This document shows positions 1,956 through 4,865 of a stretch of DNA of 64,000 nucleotides, piece by piece. Made by a program: the position numbers and the translations under genes. Below the pieces are notes generated by a model. That model was given only the letters and a program-made list of their open reading frames with translations. It was not told where the DNA came from and searched no databases. The DNA comes from Pseudacidovorax sp. NFM-22 (GTDB lineage: Bacteria; Pseudomonadota; Gammaproteobacteria; Burkholderiales; Burkholderiaceae_C). The stretch lies in assembly GCF_021401245.1 (NCBI RefSeq), contig NZ_JACBFY010000007.1, forward strand, positions 62,001 to 126,000, read 5' to 3'. The stretch's first letter is position 1. Each line of letters starts with the position of its first letter.

Positions 1956-1972
1956 CCCAAAAGACGTGCCAG
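1956..1972 (-). promoter_or_regulatory. Candidate sigma-54 (-24/-12) promoter
   Basis: Read on the minus strand the site is CTGGCACG, 4 bases, then TTGGG. The consensus is YTGGCACG-N4-TTGCW, so the -24 element is perfect and the -12 element has one mismatch (G for C). Predicted start of transcription is about 20-25 bases before the ATG at 1923. The nearest upstream gene encodes an NtrC-type activator, which is what such a promoter needs. Confidence 0.6.
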
Positions 1973-2035
1973 CCGCGCTTGCCTTGCAGATCAAGGACTT
2001 GGCTGCGGGTGGGCGCCGTGGGTTGGCCGCGTGGC

Positions 2036-2064
2036 GGACAGCGGCTGTCCGGGAACAGGACAGC
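2036..2064. promoter_or_regulatory. Three GGACAGC half-sites (candidate activator-binding/UAS)
   Basis: GGACAGC at 2036-2042, its reverse complement GCTGTCC at 2044-2050, and GGACAGC again at 2058-2064. They form two alternative dyads centred about 80-90 bp upstream of the candidate -24 element at 1971. This is a usual distance for enhancer sites of NtrC-family activators. The dyad also begins 16 bases after the end of the activator gene, so a hairpin terminator role is the alternative; no T-run supports that. Confidence 0.5.
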
Positions 2065-2079
2065 GGCCCGCGCCTGGCG

Positions 2080-3432
2080 TCACTCCAGCCCGTACTGCGC
2101 GAGCTTGGTGTAGAGCAGCTGCCGATGGATGCCCAGTTGCCGGGCCGCCATCGAACGGTTGCCGCCGGCCGCGGCCAGGGCATGCTGCAGCAGCAGCTTC
2201 TCCAGCCGCTCCACGGCCTCGGGCAGGGTGCCGTCGTACCAGTCGGCCGGCAGGCCGCCGATGCCCTCGGCCGCATTGCCCACGCTTCCCGCTCCCGGCA
2301 GCTCGACCTGCGCGATCACGGCGCCGCGCTGCAGCGCGTGGCAGCGCTCCATGGCATTGCGCAGCTCGCGCACGTTGCCGGGCCAGTCGTAGGCCAGCAG
2401 GGCGCGGGCCGCCTCGGCCGACAGCCGCTTGGCCGGGCCGGGTGCCGCCGCCAGCCGCAGGAAGTGCTCGGCCAGCGGCACGATGTCGGCCAGCCGCTCG
2501 CGCAGTGGCGGCAGGCGCACCGACAGCACGTCGAGCCGGTAGCGCAGGTCTTCGCGGAATCGGCCGTCGCGCACGGCCTGGGCCAGGTCACGGTGGGTGG
2601 CGGCCACCACGCGCACGTCCACCTTCTGCACGCGGTGGCTGCCCACGGGCGTGACCTCGCCTTCCTGCAGCACGCGCAGCAGCTTGGCCTGCACCTCCAG
2701 CGCCATGTCGCCGATCTCGTCGAGCAGCAGCACGCCGCCGTTGGCGGCCTTGAAGCAGCCGGCCCGCTCGGCCACCGCGCCGGTGAAGGCGCCCTTGACG
2801 TGGCCGAACAGCTCGCTTTCCAGCAGGTCCTTGGGGATGGCGGCGCAGTTGACGGCCACGAAGGGCCCGTCGGCCCGGTCGGAGTGGCGATGCAGGGCGC
2901 GTGCGACCAGCTCCTTGCCGGTGCCCGTCTCGCCGATCACCAGCACCGGCGCGCGGCTGCCGGCGGCCAGGCCGATGCGCTTGTGCACCTCGCGCATGGC
3001 CTCGCTCACGCCGATCAGCTCACCGTCGTCCGCCACGGGCTGAGGGGCCGGCGCCGCCGAGGCGGGCGTGGCCGAGGCCAGCGCGCGGCGCGCGGCGTCG
3101 ACGACCGCGTCGCGGCTGATCGGCTTGGCCAGGTGGTCGAAGGCGCCCAGGCGCATGGCCTCGATGGTGCCGGCGCTGCCGGCATGGGCCGTGAGCACGA
3201 TGACGGGCGGCCGGCGTGCCAGCCGCGCGTTCATCGCAGCCAGGGTCTGCAGGCCGTCCATGCCGGGCATGCGGTGGTCGAGGAAGACCAGGTCGAAGCG
3301 GTGCGCGCCCAGCAGCGCCAGGCCCTCTTCGCCGCCGGGCGCGGTCTGCACGGCATGGCCCAGGCTCTCGAGCGTCTCGCGCAGCGAATCGGCGAAGGCC
3401 GCGTCGTCGTCGACGATCAGCAGGTCTGCCAT
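2080..3432 (-). CDS. Sigma-54-dependent two-component response regulator (NtrC family)
   Basis: 450 residues. Receiver domain at ~1-120 with acidic pocket D8-D10 and phosphoacceptor D52 (VFLDHRMPG). AAA+ domain at ~137-370 with Walker A GETGTGKE (167-174) and the sigma-54 contact loop GAFTGA (214-219), both intact. A Fis-type HTH at the C-terminus (AAAGGNRSMAARQLGIHRQ) is present. The start is the ATG at 3432, which overlaps the 3' end of the sensor kinase gene by 16 bp, so the two are translationally coupled. The likely local target is the sigma-54 promoter at 1956-1972. Confidence 0.93.
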   Translation of the reverse strand: MADLLIVDDDAAFADSLRETLESLGHAVQTAPGGEEGLALLGAHRFDLVFLDHRMPGMDGLQTLAAMNARLARRPPVIVLTAHAGSAGTIEAMRLGAFDHLAKPISRDAVVDAARRALASATPASAAPAPQPVADDGELIGVSEAMREVHKRIGLAAGSRAPVLVIGETGTGKELVARALHRHSDRADGPFVAVNCAAIPKDLLESELFGHVKGAFTGAVAERAGCFKAANGGVLLLDEIGDMALEVQAKLLRVLQEGEVTPVGSHRVQKVDVRVVAATHRDLAQAVRDGRFREDLRYRLDVLSVRLPPLRERLADIVPLAEHFLRLAAAPGPAKRLSAEAARALLAYDWPGNVRELRNAMERCHALQRGAVIAQVELPGAGSVGNAAEGIGGLPADWYDGTLPEAVERLEKLLLQHALAAAGGNRSMAARQLGIHRQLLYTKLAQYGLE

Positions 3433-4865
3433 GGCATCTCCAGGATGAAGCGGGCGCCGGGCGCGTCGGGTTCGTGGCGCAGCTCGCCGCCGTGGGCGAA
3501 GGCCACCTCGCGCGACAGCGCCAGGCCCAGGCCGGTGCCGTCGGCCCGGCCGGTGCCGAAGGGCTCGAACAGGCGGCTGCGCAGGGTCTCGGGCACGCCC
3601 TCGCCGTCGTCGCTGACCGTGATCGCCAACTGGCCGCGCGCCGCATCGGCGTGGGCGACCAGCCGCACCTGGCCGCCGGGGCTGCGGGCATGGCGCACGG
3701 CGTTGTCCAGCAGGTTGTCGATGGCGCGGGCGAGGTGCATGGGGTCGAAGACGGCGCAGGCCGGGGCGCCTTCGGCCAGCACCAGCCTTACCTGCCGGGC
3801 CGCGGCGGCGGGCGTGGCGGCGGCCAGGCGCTCGTCCAGCCAGGCGGGCAGGTCGACGGGCTGCGGCTTGAGCTCCAGGGGCTGCACCAGCGCCAGCAGG
3901 CTCTGCACCACGGCATCGAGCCGGTCGATCTGGCCGACGATGGTCTGCAGCGCGCGGCCCTGCGCCGGCGCGTCGCCGGCCAGCGCGTTCTCGGCCTTCA
4001 GGCGCATCGCGGCGATGGGGTTGCGGATCTCGTGCGCCACGGCCGAACTCATGCGGCCGAGCGCGGCCAGGCGCATGTCCCGGCTGCGCTGCGCCTGGGC
4101 GTCGCGGGCGGCGGCGCGGGCTTCCTCGAAGCGGCCGGCAAAGCCGTTGTAGCTGGCGACGATGCGGTCCAGCTCTTCCAGACCCGTGCGCGGCAGGACC
4201 GGCATGGCGTCGGCCGGCGCGGCGGCCAGCGCGAGCTCCAGCCGCCGCAGCCGGGCCTGGCCGCGGTAGAGCAGCAGCCCCAGCCACAGCCCCGAGAAGA
4301 CGATGGCGGCCACCAGCGCCGCCACACCCGCACGCAGGCCGCCCTCGGCCGCAACGGCGCCGAGCTGGGTGCGGGTCATGGTCCAGGCAGCGGCACCGCC
4401 GGCGTTCAGCGGGCAGGCGGCCACGATCAGCAGCTCACGGCTGCCGCGAACCTGCTGGGCCTGGTCGCGGCCGGTGTCCACGGCCTGCCGGGCCAGTTGT
4501 TCGAGCAGCGGGCGTTCGGCCGGCGGCACGTCGGTCTTGACGCCGGCGCCTTCATAGGTGGGGTAGGCATAGCCCACCATGCCGCCGTCGCGGCTCCAGA
4601 TGCCGCCTTCCACGTAGGGCGCCTCGGTCAGCACCAGTTGCAGCAGCACCCGCGCCAGGTCGGCCTGCAGGTCGGGCGCGGGCGGCGCGGACTGGGTGTA
4701 GCGCTGGGCGAGCTGCCCGCAGGCCTGCTCGACCCGGGCGCGGCCCACCTTCATCTGCATCGCGGGGCTCAGGCGGTACAGCCCGAGCAGCACCACGCCG
4801 AGCAGCAGACAGATGGCGATGAGCAGCGCCCAGAACACGGCAAGTTGCAGGCGCAGCGATCTCAT
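3417..4865 (-). CDS. Membrane sensor histidine kinase, partner of the NtrC-type regulator
   Basis: 482 residues from the ATG at 4865. A first membrane helix lies at ~7-30. A periplasmic sensor region of ~145 residues follows, with no family I recognise. A second helix is at ~177-197, then a HAMP-like linker and a HisKA domain with the phosphoacceptor in AVAHEIRNPIAA. The HATPase domain has its N box (NLLDNAVRHA), DDGEG and GTGLGLALSREVAFAHGG. The order membrane sensor, HisKA, HATPase matches NtrB/ZraS-like kinases that partner sigma-54 regulators. The input signal is unknown. An in-frame extension upstream of 4865 is antisense to the glycosyltransferase gene and was not accepted. Confidence 0.9.
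   Translation of the reverse strand: MRSLRLQLAVFWALLIAICLLLGVVLLGLYRLSPAMQMKVGRARVEQACGQLAQRYTQSAPPAPDLQADLARVLLQLVLTEAPYVEGGIWSRDGGMVGYAYPTYEGAGVKTDVPPAERPLLEQLARQAVDTGRDQAQQVRGSRELLIVAACPLNAGGAAAWTMTRTQLGAVAAEGGLRAGVAALVAAIVFSGLWLGLLLYRGQARLRRLELALAAAPADAMPVLPRTGLEELDRIVASYNGFAGRFEEARAAARDAQAQRSRDMRLAALGRMSSAVAHEIRNPIAAMRLKAENALAGDAPAQGRALQTIVGQIDRLDAVVQSLLALVQPLELKPQPVDLPAWLDERLAAATPAAAARQVRLVLAEGAPACAVFDPMHLARAIDNLLDNAVRHARSPGGQVRLVAHADAARGQLAITVSDDGEGVPETLRSRLFEPFGTGRADGTGLGLALSREVAFAHGGELRHEPDAPGARFILEMPWQTC

Follow-up and report, generated by a model that had tools for sequence, protein, structure and literature searches.

Among two-component systems that act through sigma-54, DctBD and MifSR induce uptake transporters, NtrBC supplies the type for the activators, and ZraPSR (HydHG) of Escherichia coli combines a membrane kinase and an NtrC-type sigma-54 activator with an adjacent target gene encoding a periplasmic protein. 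For the ZraPSR activator, genomic systematic evolution of ligands by exponential enrichment (gSELEX) identified one high-affinity target, which encodes this periplasmic accessory protein, and chromatin immunoprecipitation sequencing (ChIP-seq) cited in the same article reported 25 further targets (PMC8249747). SipA and YgiW, periplasmic proteins with an oligonucleotide/oligosaccharide-binding (OB) fold, protect against cadmium and peroxide, and the former also binds antimicrobial peptides (PMC6370654). Sigma-54 is known to regulate surface functions and transport (PMC3162934), and integration host factor (IHF), placed between enhancer and promoter, is a frequent feature of its promoters (PMC7962754). 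Here we describe a locus of Pseudacidovorax sp. NFM-22, contained in a 64,000-nucleotide window (contig NZ_JACBFY010000007.1, positions 62,001 to 126,000), in which a kinase and activator gene pair is followed by enhancer-like and promoter-like sites, by the gene of an exported protein that we call SecX, by that of its cytosolic homologue, CytOB, and by a transporter gene of the major facilitator superfamily (MFS). Judged from sequence and its conservation, the locus probably encodes a dedicated sigma-54 two-component system with a single target operon.

A box and an enhancer-like dyad are conserved beside the activator

The 156-bp gap between the activator gene and secX holds three half-sites and a -24/-12 box (Table 1). 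A first-pass annotation of the sequence had proposed three GGACAGC half-sites and a near-consensus sigma-54 promoter. All three half-sites are indeed present; more specifically, two of them form a TGTCC-N7-GGACA dyad and the third is extra. The extended palindrome, GCTGTCC-TGTTCCC-GGACAGC, spans 21 bp (2044-2064), and GCTGTCC-N(4-7)-GGACAGC occurs a single time in the 6.42-Mb genome. The box has the GG at -24, the G at -12 and the correct spacing of a sigma-54 promoter; the position after the -12 G is another G, so the -12 element reads TTGG instead of the consensus TTGC and the earlier description needs correcting there. Between dyad and box lies an IHF-like site that the first pass had missed, GATCAAGGACTTG, one mismatch away from the IHF consensus WATCAANNNNTTR. 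Genes for rpoN and IHF-alpha are present. Because YTGGCACG-N4-TTG boxes number seven on both strands of the genome against three for a reversed-pattern control, the box alone is weak evidence; it is the combination of motifs and its conservation that decide above chance.

A scan of named genomes located SecX homologues at 74 loci, the closest named ones in Pseudacidovorax and Xenophilus. Variovorax, Acidovorax, Paracidovorax, Pseudorhodoferax, Xylophilus, Roseateles, Delftia and Achromobacter are among the other genera, further loci come from Xanthomonas, Paraburkholderia, Rhodanobacter and Acetobacteraceae, and single records are labelled Opitutaceae, Nitrospira, Solirubrobacterales and Myxococcales, where labels of metagenome-assembled genomes may reflect contamination. 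This spread over several bacterial classes had likewise escaped the first pass. At 61 of the 74 loci an activator gene lies upstream of secX on the same strand, usually with a kinase gene and at some loci with an intervening gene. One of them (L125) reads N in the promoter gap, which leaves 60 with readable DNA.

The box and a TGTCC-N7-GGACA-like dyad are found together in all 60 loci. Box scores are 13 in 30 loci, 12 in 28 and 11 in two (L131 and L138), and the dyad carries no mismatch in 11 loci, one in 40 and two in nine. As a control for the box, 1480 random 500-nt segments were drawn from the same loci, whose scanned stretches measure 500-660 nt, and 41 of them reached a score of at least 12. 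For the dyad, a site with no more than two mismatches was present in 64 of the 65 loci examined and in 95 of 2559 length-matched control segments. In 55 of the 60 activator-linked loci, and in 58 of the 65 examined, the distance from the T of TGG to the centre of the dyad is 82-84 bp; four far outliers among the 65 measure 60, 71, 93 and 93 bp. An IHF-like site with at most one mismatch recurs at a constant position between the dyad and the box in 47 of 66 promoters, among them 45 of the 48 promoters of the Comamonadaceae set, and at none of 6387 random positions. The first pass had drawn a regulatory link from activator to promoter, and this comparison beside orthologous activators leaves it standing.

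Identity among 56 loci falls to 42% for activators and 22% for SecX. Pairwise identities of activator and SecX are correlated (Spearman 0.91), as are those of kinase and SecX (0.87), and shared ancestry contributes to both values. Within the genus, the kinase occurs in 12 of 15 genomes and SecX in the same 12; one of these (G205) is counted through a SecX start at a contig end (L050), where the sole search match is weak (8.7e-4). The eleven other fetched loci of the genus all keep kinase, activator and box, and their dyads show small changes. Across 200 genomes of the family, SecX matches occur in 14 and matches to the isolated sensor domain in 14, and the 12 strong ones (3.1e-35 or better for SecX, 2.3e-22 or better for the sensor) fall in identical genomes. 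The weak extras do not coincide (SecX in G061, 1.6e-11, and G103, 7.8e-4; sensor in G039, 2.5e-4, and G179, 4.5e-4).

Transporter genes and the range of targets

The first pass had taken the target to be one secreted-protein gene. The secX gene does head the target, and the output is likely an operon that includes a transporter: by their arrangement, secX, cytOB and the MFS gene are likely co-transcribed, in an operon that would extend beyond the left window edge. An MFS gene is present in 50 of the 61 activator-linked loci; a contig edge cuts off some of the remaining 11, but not L129, L135, L141, L146 and L147. Transporters of the SLC13/CitMHS type occur in 25 of the 74 loci (two queries), a DMT_6 protein in five and a metallophosphatase-like protein, named by reading, in three.

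At ten of the 74 loci a gene stands between activator and secX, encoding an SLC13 transporter or, in L116, an MFS transporter. Eight of the ten inserted genes have a dyad and box of their own (at most two mismatches and a score of at least 11, within 350 nt after the activator, a scan with no separate control), L112 has the box only and L100 has neither; L118 and L123, and likewise L119 and L120, are near twins. These additional copies speak for the transporters being targets. In 57 loci the 300 nt upstream of the kinase gene contain no dyad with at most one mismatch, and there is thus no sign of autoregulation through the dyad site. The genome itself yielded no second convincing target, its six further sites all having three mismatches against 27 control matches. 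Dyad plus box was rejected as a genome-wide regulon finder for lack of specificity: matches arose in 96 of 399 family genomes, mostly with a centre that looks non-palindromic, and in most genomes the reversed-pattern control gives more of them.

Further variation concerns the accessory genes. The small membrane protein DMT_6 (DUF486) is encoded inside the cluster in L126, L128, L129, L130, L149 and L060, and the Methylocystis locus L158 has an annotated DMT transporter. The metallophosphatase-like gene precedes the MFS gene in L137 and L133 and follows it in L116. In L054 (7111-7257) the CytOB homologue has shrunk to a short reading frame and is apparently degraded. MFS homologues of Pantoea and Duffyella have unrelated surroundings.

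Loci without an upstream activator and plasmid loci

Thirteen of the 74 loci lack a same-strand upstream activator. Six keep the box: L091, adjoined by transposase-like genes; L094, which lies where a contig ends; L122, whose pair is divergent; and L142-L144. In the other seven, a box of score 12 is absent or could not be judged: L128 and L152 (contig edges), L133, L148, L151, L153, and L149 (score 11, pair downstream). In the Gluconacetobacter loci L148 and L153, secX adjoins a purH-like gene, named by reading.

SecX matches occur in 20 of 72,556 plasmid records. Seven such loci were opened: the pair lies upstream in three and downstream in one and is missing in two, and one record is unannotated. 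The order is kinase-activator-hypothetical-hypothetical-MFS in Burkholderia stagnalis and in Bradyrhizobium barranii, where an anion transporter is added, and kinase-activator-hypothetical in Acidiphilium; in Methylocystis secX lies upstream and the pair directly precedes MFS and anion transporter genes. On the Methylocapsa plasmid pRX1 (L162), the pair-less secX lies a few kb from stress genes of the CsbD and Spy/CpxP families.

Domains of the encoded proteins

The kinase, activator and secreted-protein genes lie where the first pass had put them, and their Pfam domains fit: HisKA and HATPase_c in the kinase, and REC, Sigma54_activat and HTH_8 in the activator, which is the domain set of an NtrC-family sigma-54 activator (bacterial enhancer-binding protein). 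The start of the activator gene overlaps the 3' end of the kinase gene. GAFTGA stands at residue 214 of the window activator and is present in 54 of 57 aligned activators, this one included, and the GIHRQLLY stretch of the helix-turn-helix (HTH) is kept in more than 85% of the 57.

Table 1. Features of the locus, in coordinates of the 64,000-nt window; the locus lies on the minus strand
Feature	Position	Strand	Remarks
MFS transporter gene, start only	1..449	-	20 nt after cytOB; runs past left window edge; family assigned by Pfam on the relative at L057
CytOB, SecX homologue	470..1012	-	no evident signal peptide; 68 nt downstream of secX
SecX	1081..1923	-	signal peptide (by eye); Pro-rich stretch modelled with low confidence; two predicted OB folds
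Sigma-54-type -24/-12 box CTGGCACGTCTTTTGGG	1956..1972	-	CTGGCACG-TCTT-TTGGG; consensus C of -12 missing
IHF-like site GATCAAGGACTTG	1989..2001	.	between dyad and box
Half-sites	2036-2042; 2044-2050; 2058-2064		GGACAGC; GCTGTCC; GGACAGC (minus-strand reading)
Third half-site GGACAGC	2036..2042	.	outside dyad
Enhancer-like dyad TGTCC-N7-GGACA	2046..2062	.	formed by two of the three half-sites
NtrC-type response regulator (activator)	2080..3432	-	REC, AAA+ with GAFTGA, Fis-type HTH
Membrane sensor histidine kinase, 482 aa	3417..4865	-	N-terminal transmembrane segment (TM), periplasmic sensor, TM, HisKA, HATPase_c; TM read from sequence and structure model
Kinase Cys151 codon	4413..4415	-	Cys in 57 of 59 aligned kinases
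Kinase Cys49 codon	4719..4721	-	Cys in 57 of 59 aligned kinases

The periplasmic sensor of the kinase is predicted to consist of helices and a beta/alpha/beta arrangement. It matched no Pfam family and had no credible match in the Protein Data Bank (PDB) in sequence searches, in agreement with the first pass, which had not recognised it. Foldseek with the whole kinase model returned kinase cores, that of ZraS at rank 30, and so did not address the sensor fold. Cys49 and Cys151 are both missing in the single Nitrospira kinase.

The window SecX matches no Pfam family at E of at most 0.001. For two relatives there was no match at E of at most 1 to BOF, the Pfam model of YgiW/YdeI, and a sub-threshold match to DUF5666; remote kinship of SecX to the BOF family is conceivable. 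Sequence comparison of SecX with the PDB gave designed beta-trefoils alone, at E of at least 0.003, which we took as noise, and the MFS and SLC13 proteins had no match in the PDB sequence search. The structure model predicts OB-fold domains at residues 80-157 and 177-248 of SecX, and homology of CytOB to SecX has an hhalign probability of 98.5.

Comparison with known systems and a proposed circuit

The module shares the plan of ZraPSR and departs from it in that its target comprises a predicted OB-fold protein and a transporter, its genes run in line instead of divergently and autoregulation by the dyad site is not apparent. The window kinase scores 122.7 bits against a ZraS equivalog cut-off of 479 and the activator 363.8 bits against 760 for ZraR, so that the module is ZraPSR-like in plan and not a ZraPSR member. 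The best-scoring curated model for the activator is ntrC, at 437.4 bits below the cut-off of 558.6 (TIGR01818); its domain order is that of NtrBC, whereas here the kinase is a membrane protein and one target operon is seen. By its putative signal peptide and predicted folds, SecX may resemble YgiW/YdeI/SipA as an exported OB-fold protein tied to a two-component system. It differs from them in its two predicted OB domains, its Pro-rich leader, the presence of a cytosolic homologue and the lack of a BOF match, and in a regulator of the sigma-54 type. DctBD and MifSR also use a kinase and an NtrC-type activator to control transporter genes; here MFS is the commonest transporter and an exported/cytosolic OB pair is added.

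In the circuit that we propose, the Pfam-less sensor domain with its conserved cysteine pair would let the membrane kinase detect a condition of the periplasm, and the kinase, given the domains of both proteins, would phosphorylate the activator. The activator would then bind the dyad and the extra half-site, as their co-conservation suggests, and in this lineage the IHF-like site could bend the DNA between enhancer and promoter. Sigma-54 polymerase at the box would transcribe secX, cytOB and the MFS gene, together with an SLC13-type transporter gene in relatives. We tentatively favour, as a possible role, a response to envelope stress or a toxicant: OB-fold proteins in the periplasm and in the cytosol would bind a harmful compound, which the transporter would then move.

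Several observations weigh against the circuit or this role. L142-L144 have box and dyad (with three mismatches in L144) and no kinase or activator in the fetched DNA, and a regulator encoded elsewhere in the genome may control them; L133 and the Gluconacetobacter loci L148, L151 and L153 have SecX with neither an activator nor a box of at least 12; and the plasmids of Caballeronia SL2Y3 and Methylocapsa carry SecX with no pair beside it. Of the 48 promoters of the Comamonadaceae set (L080-L132), 47 lack the -12 C, which 17 of the 18 others have. The 60 loci include many close relatives and so do not count as independent events. Terminator-like hairpins, two of them between secX and cytOB (three in the region against 1.0 +/- 1.3 expected), could separate these genes transcriptionally. 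The exporter is not a fixed part, since several loci that no contig end interrupts lack the MFS gene. The OB fold is widespread and tells nothing about the ligand, and SLC13 proteins, which mostly serve uptake or ion transport, are a poor match for efflux.

One alternative is nutrient sensing, in which the kinase detects a periplasmic organic anion and induces SLC13 or MFS uptake while SecX and CytOB help to capture the solute. The SLC13/CitMHS genes, often with their own promoter copy, speak for it, and the modelled beta/alpha/beta sensor resembles known small-molecule sensors. MifSR is reported to serve alpha-ketoglutarate use (PMC4482717). Against it, the fetched stretches of the genus itself hold no SLC13 gene, and MFS genes are the ones that accompany most activator-linked loci. 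We also know of no exported/cytosolic OB-fold pair in systems of the DctBD/MifSR type, a point on which no search was made, and regard nutrient sensing as somewhat unlikely.

SecX might instead be a feedback accessory of the kinase that binds and damps the sensor, like ZraP or CpxP, with the other operon genes as the true output. The plan recalls ZraPSR, whose high-affinity target encodes such an accessory protein (PMC8249747); kinase and SecX identities are correlated, their strong matches co-occur, and SecX is retained in loci without MFS. This leaves a cytosolic homologue in the same operon unexplained, and SecX also persists in some loci that have no kinase in the vicinity; we judge a damper unlikely. 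It is more doubtful still that the locus is an unnamed, widespread envelope-defence relay whose kinase reads periplasmic redox state or folding through Cys49-Cys151, and whose matched OB-fold proteins, found on either side of the inner membrane, share a ligand that they pass on to an MFS exporter.

Positions 8217-23672 of the window form a [NiFe]-hydrogenase region with small and large subunits, HypB and HypD. That the pair serves this neighbour, whose genes start at 8217, by sensing hydrogen or the redox state is very improbable and was rejected on synteny (the small subunit appears in fetched flanks at one of 74 loci, L082 of P. intermedius) and because a separate NtrC-type activator, probably the hydrogenase regulator, stands beside the hyp genes (22224-23672). 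Finally, although the box alone barely exceeds its control in this genome, sites present in every readable locus at near-fixed spacing despite such divergent proteins are almost certainly not functionless chance motifs.

Implications

Among the matches listed in a literature search whose coverage leaves out most subscription journals, no earlier description of the module was found, and the full text of PMC12316311 contains none of the four terms sought for such a description. The sensor domain and SecX carry no family name in the libraries searched. Together with activator, enhancer and promoter they belong to a complete-looking module found in Beta-, Alpha- and Gammaproteobacteria and in a few records of other groups, sometimes on plasmids. 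The absence of the -12 C across a whole clade of promoters is useful for the prediction of sigma-54 promoters. Because the palindrome is single-copy and the spacing nearly fixed, the dedicated circuit is directly testable by a reporter and, if confirmed, would give several unnamed proteins a function.

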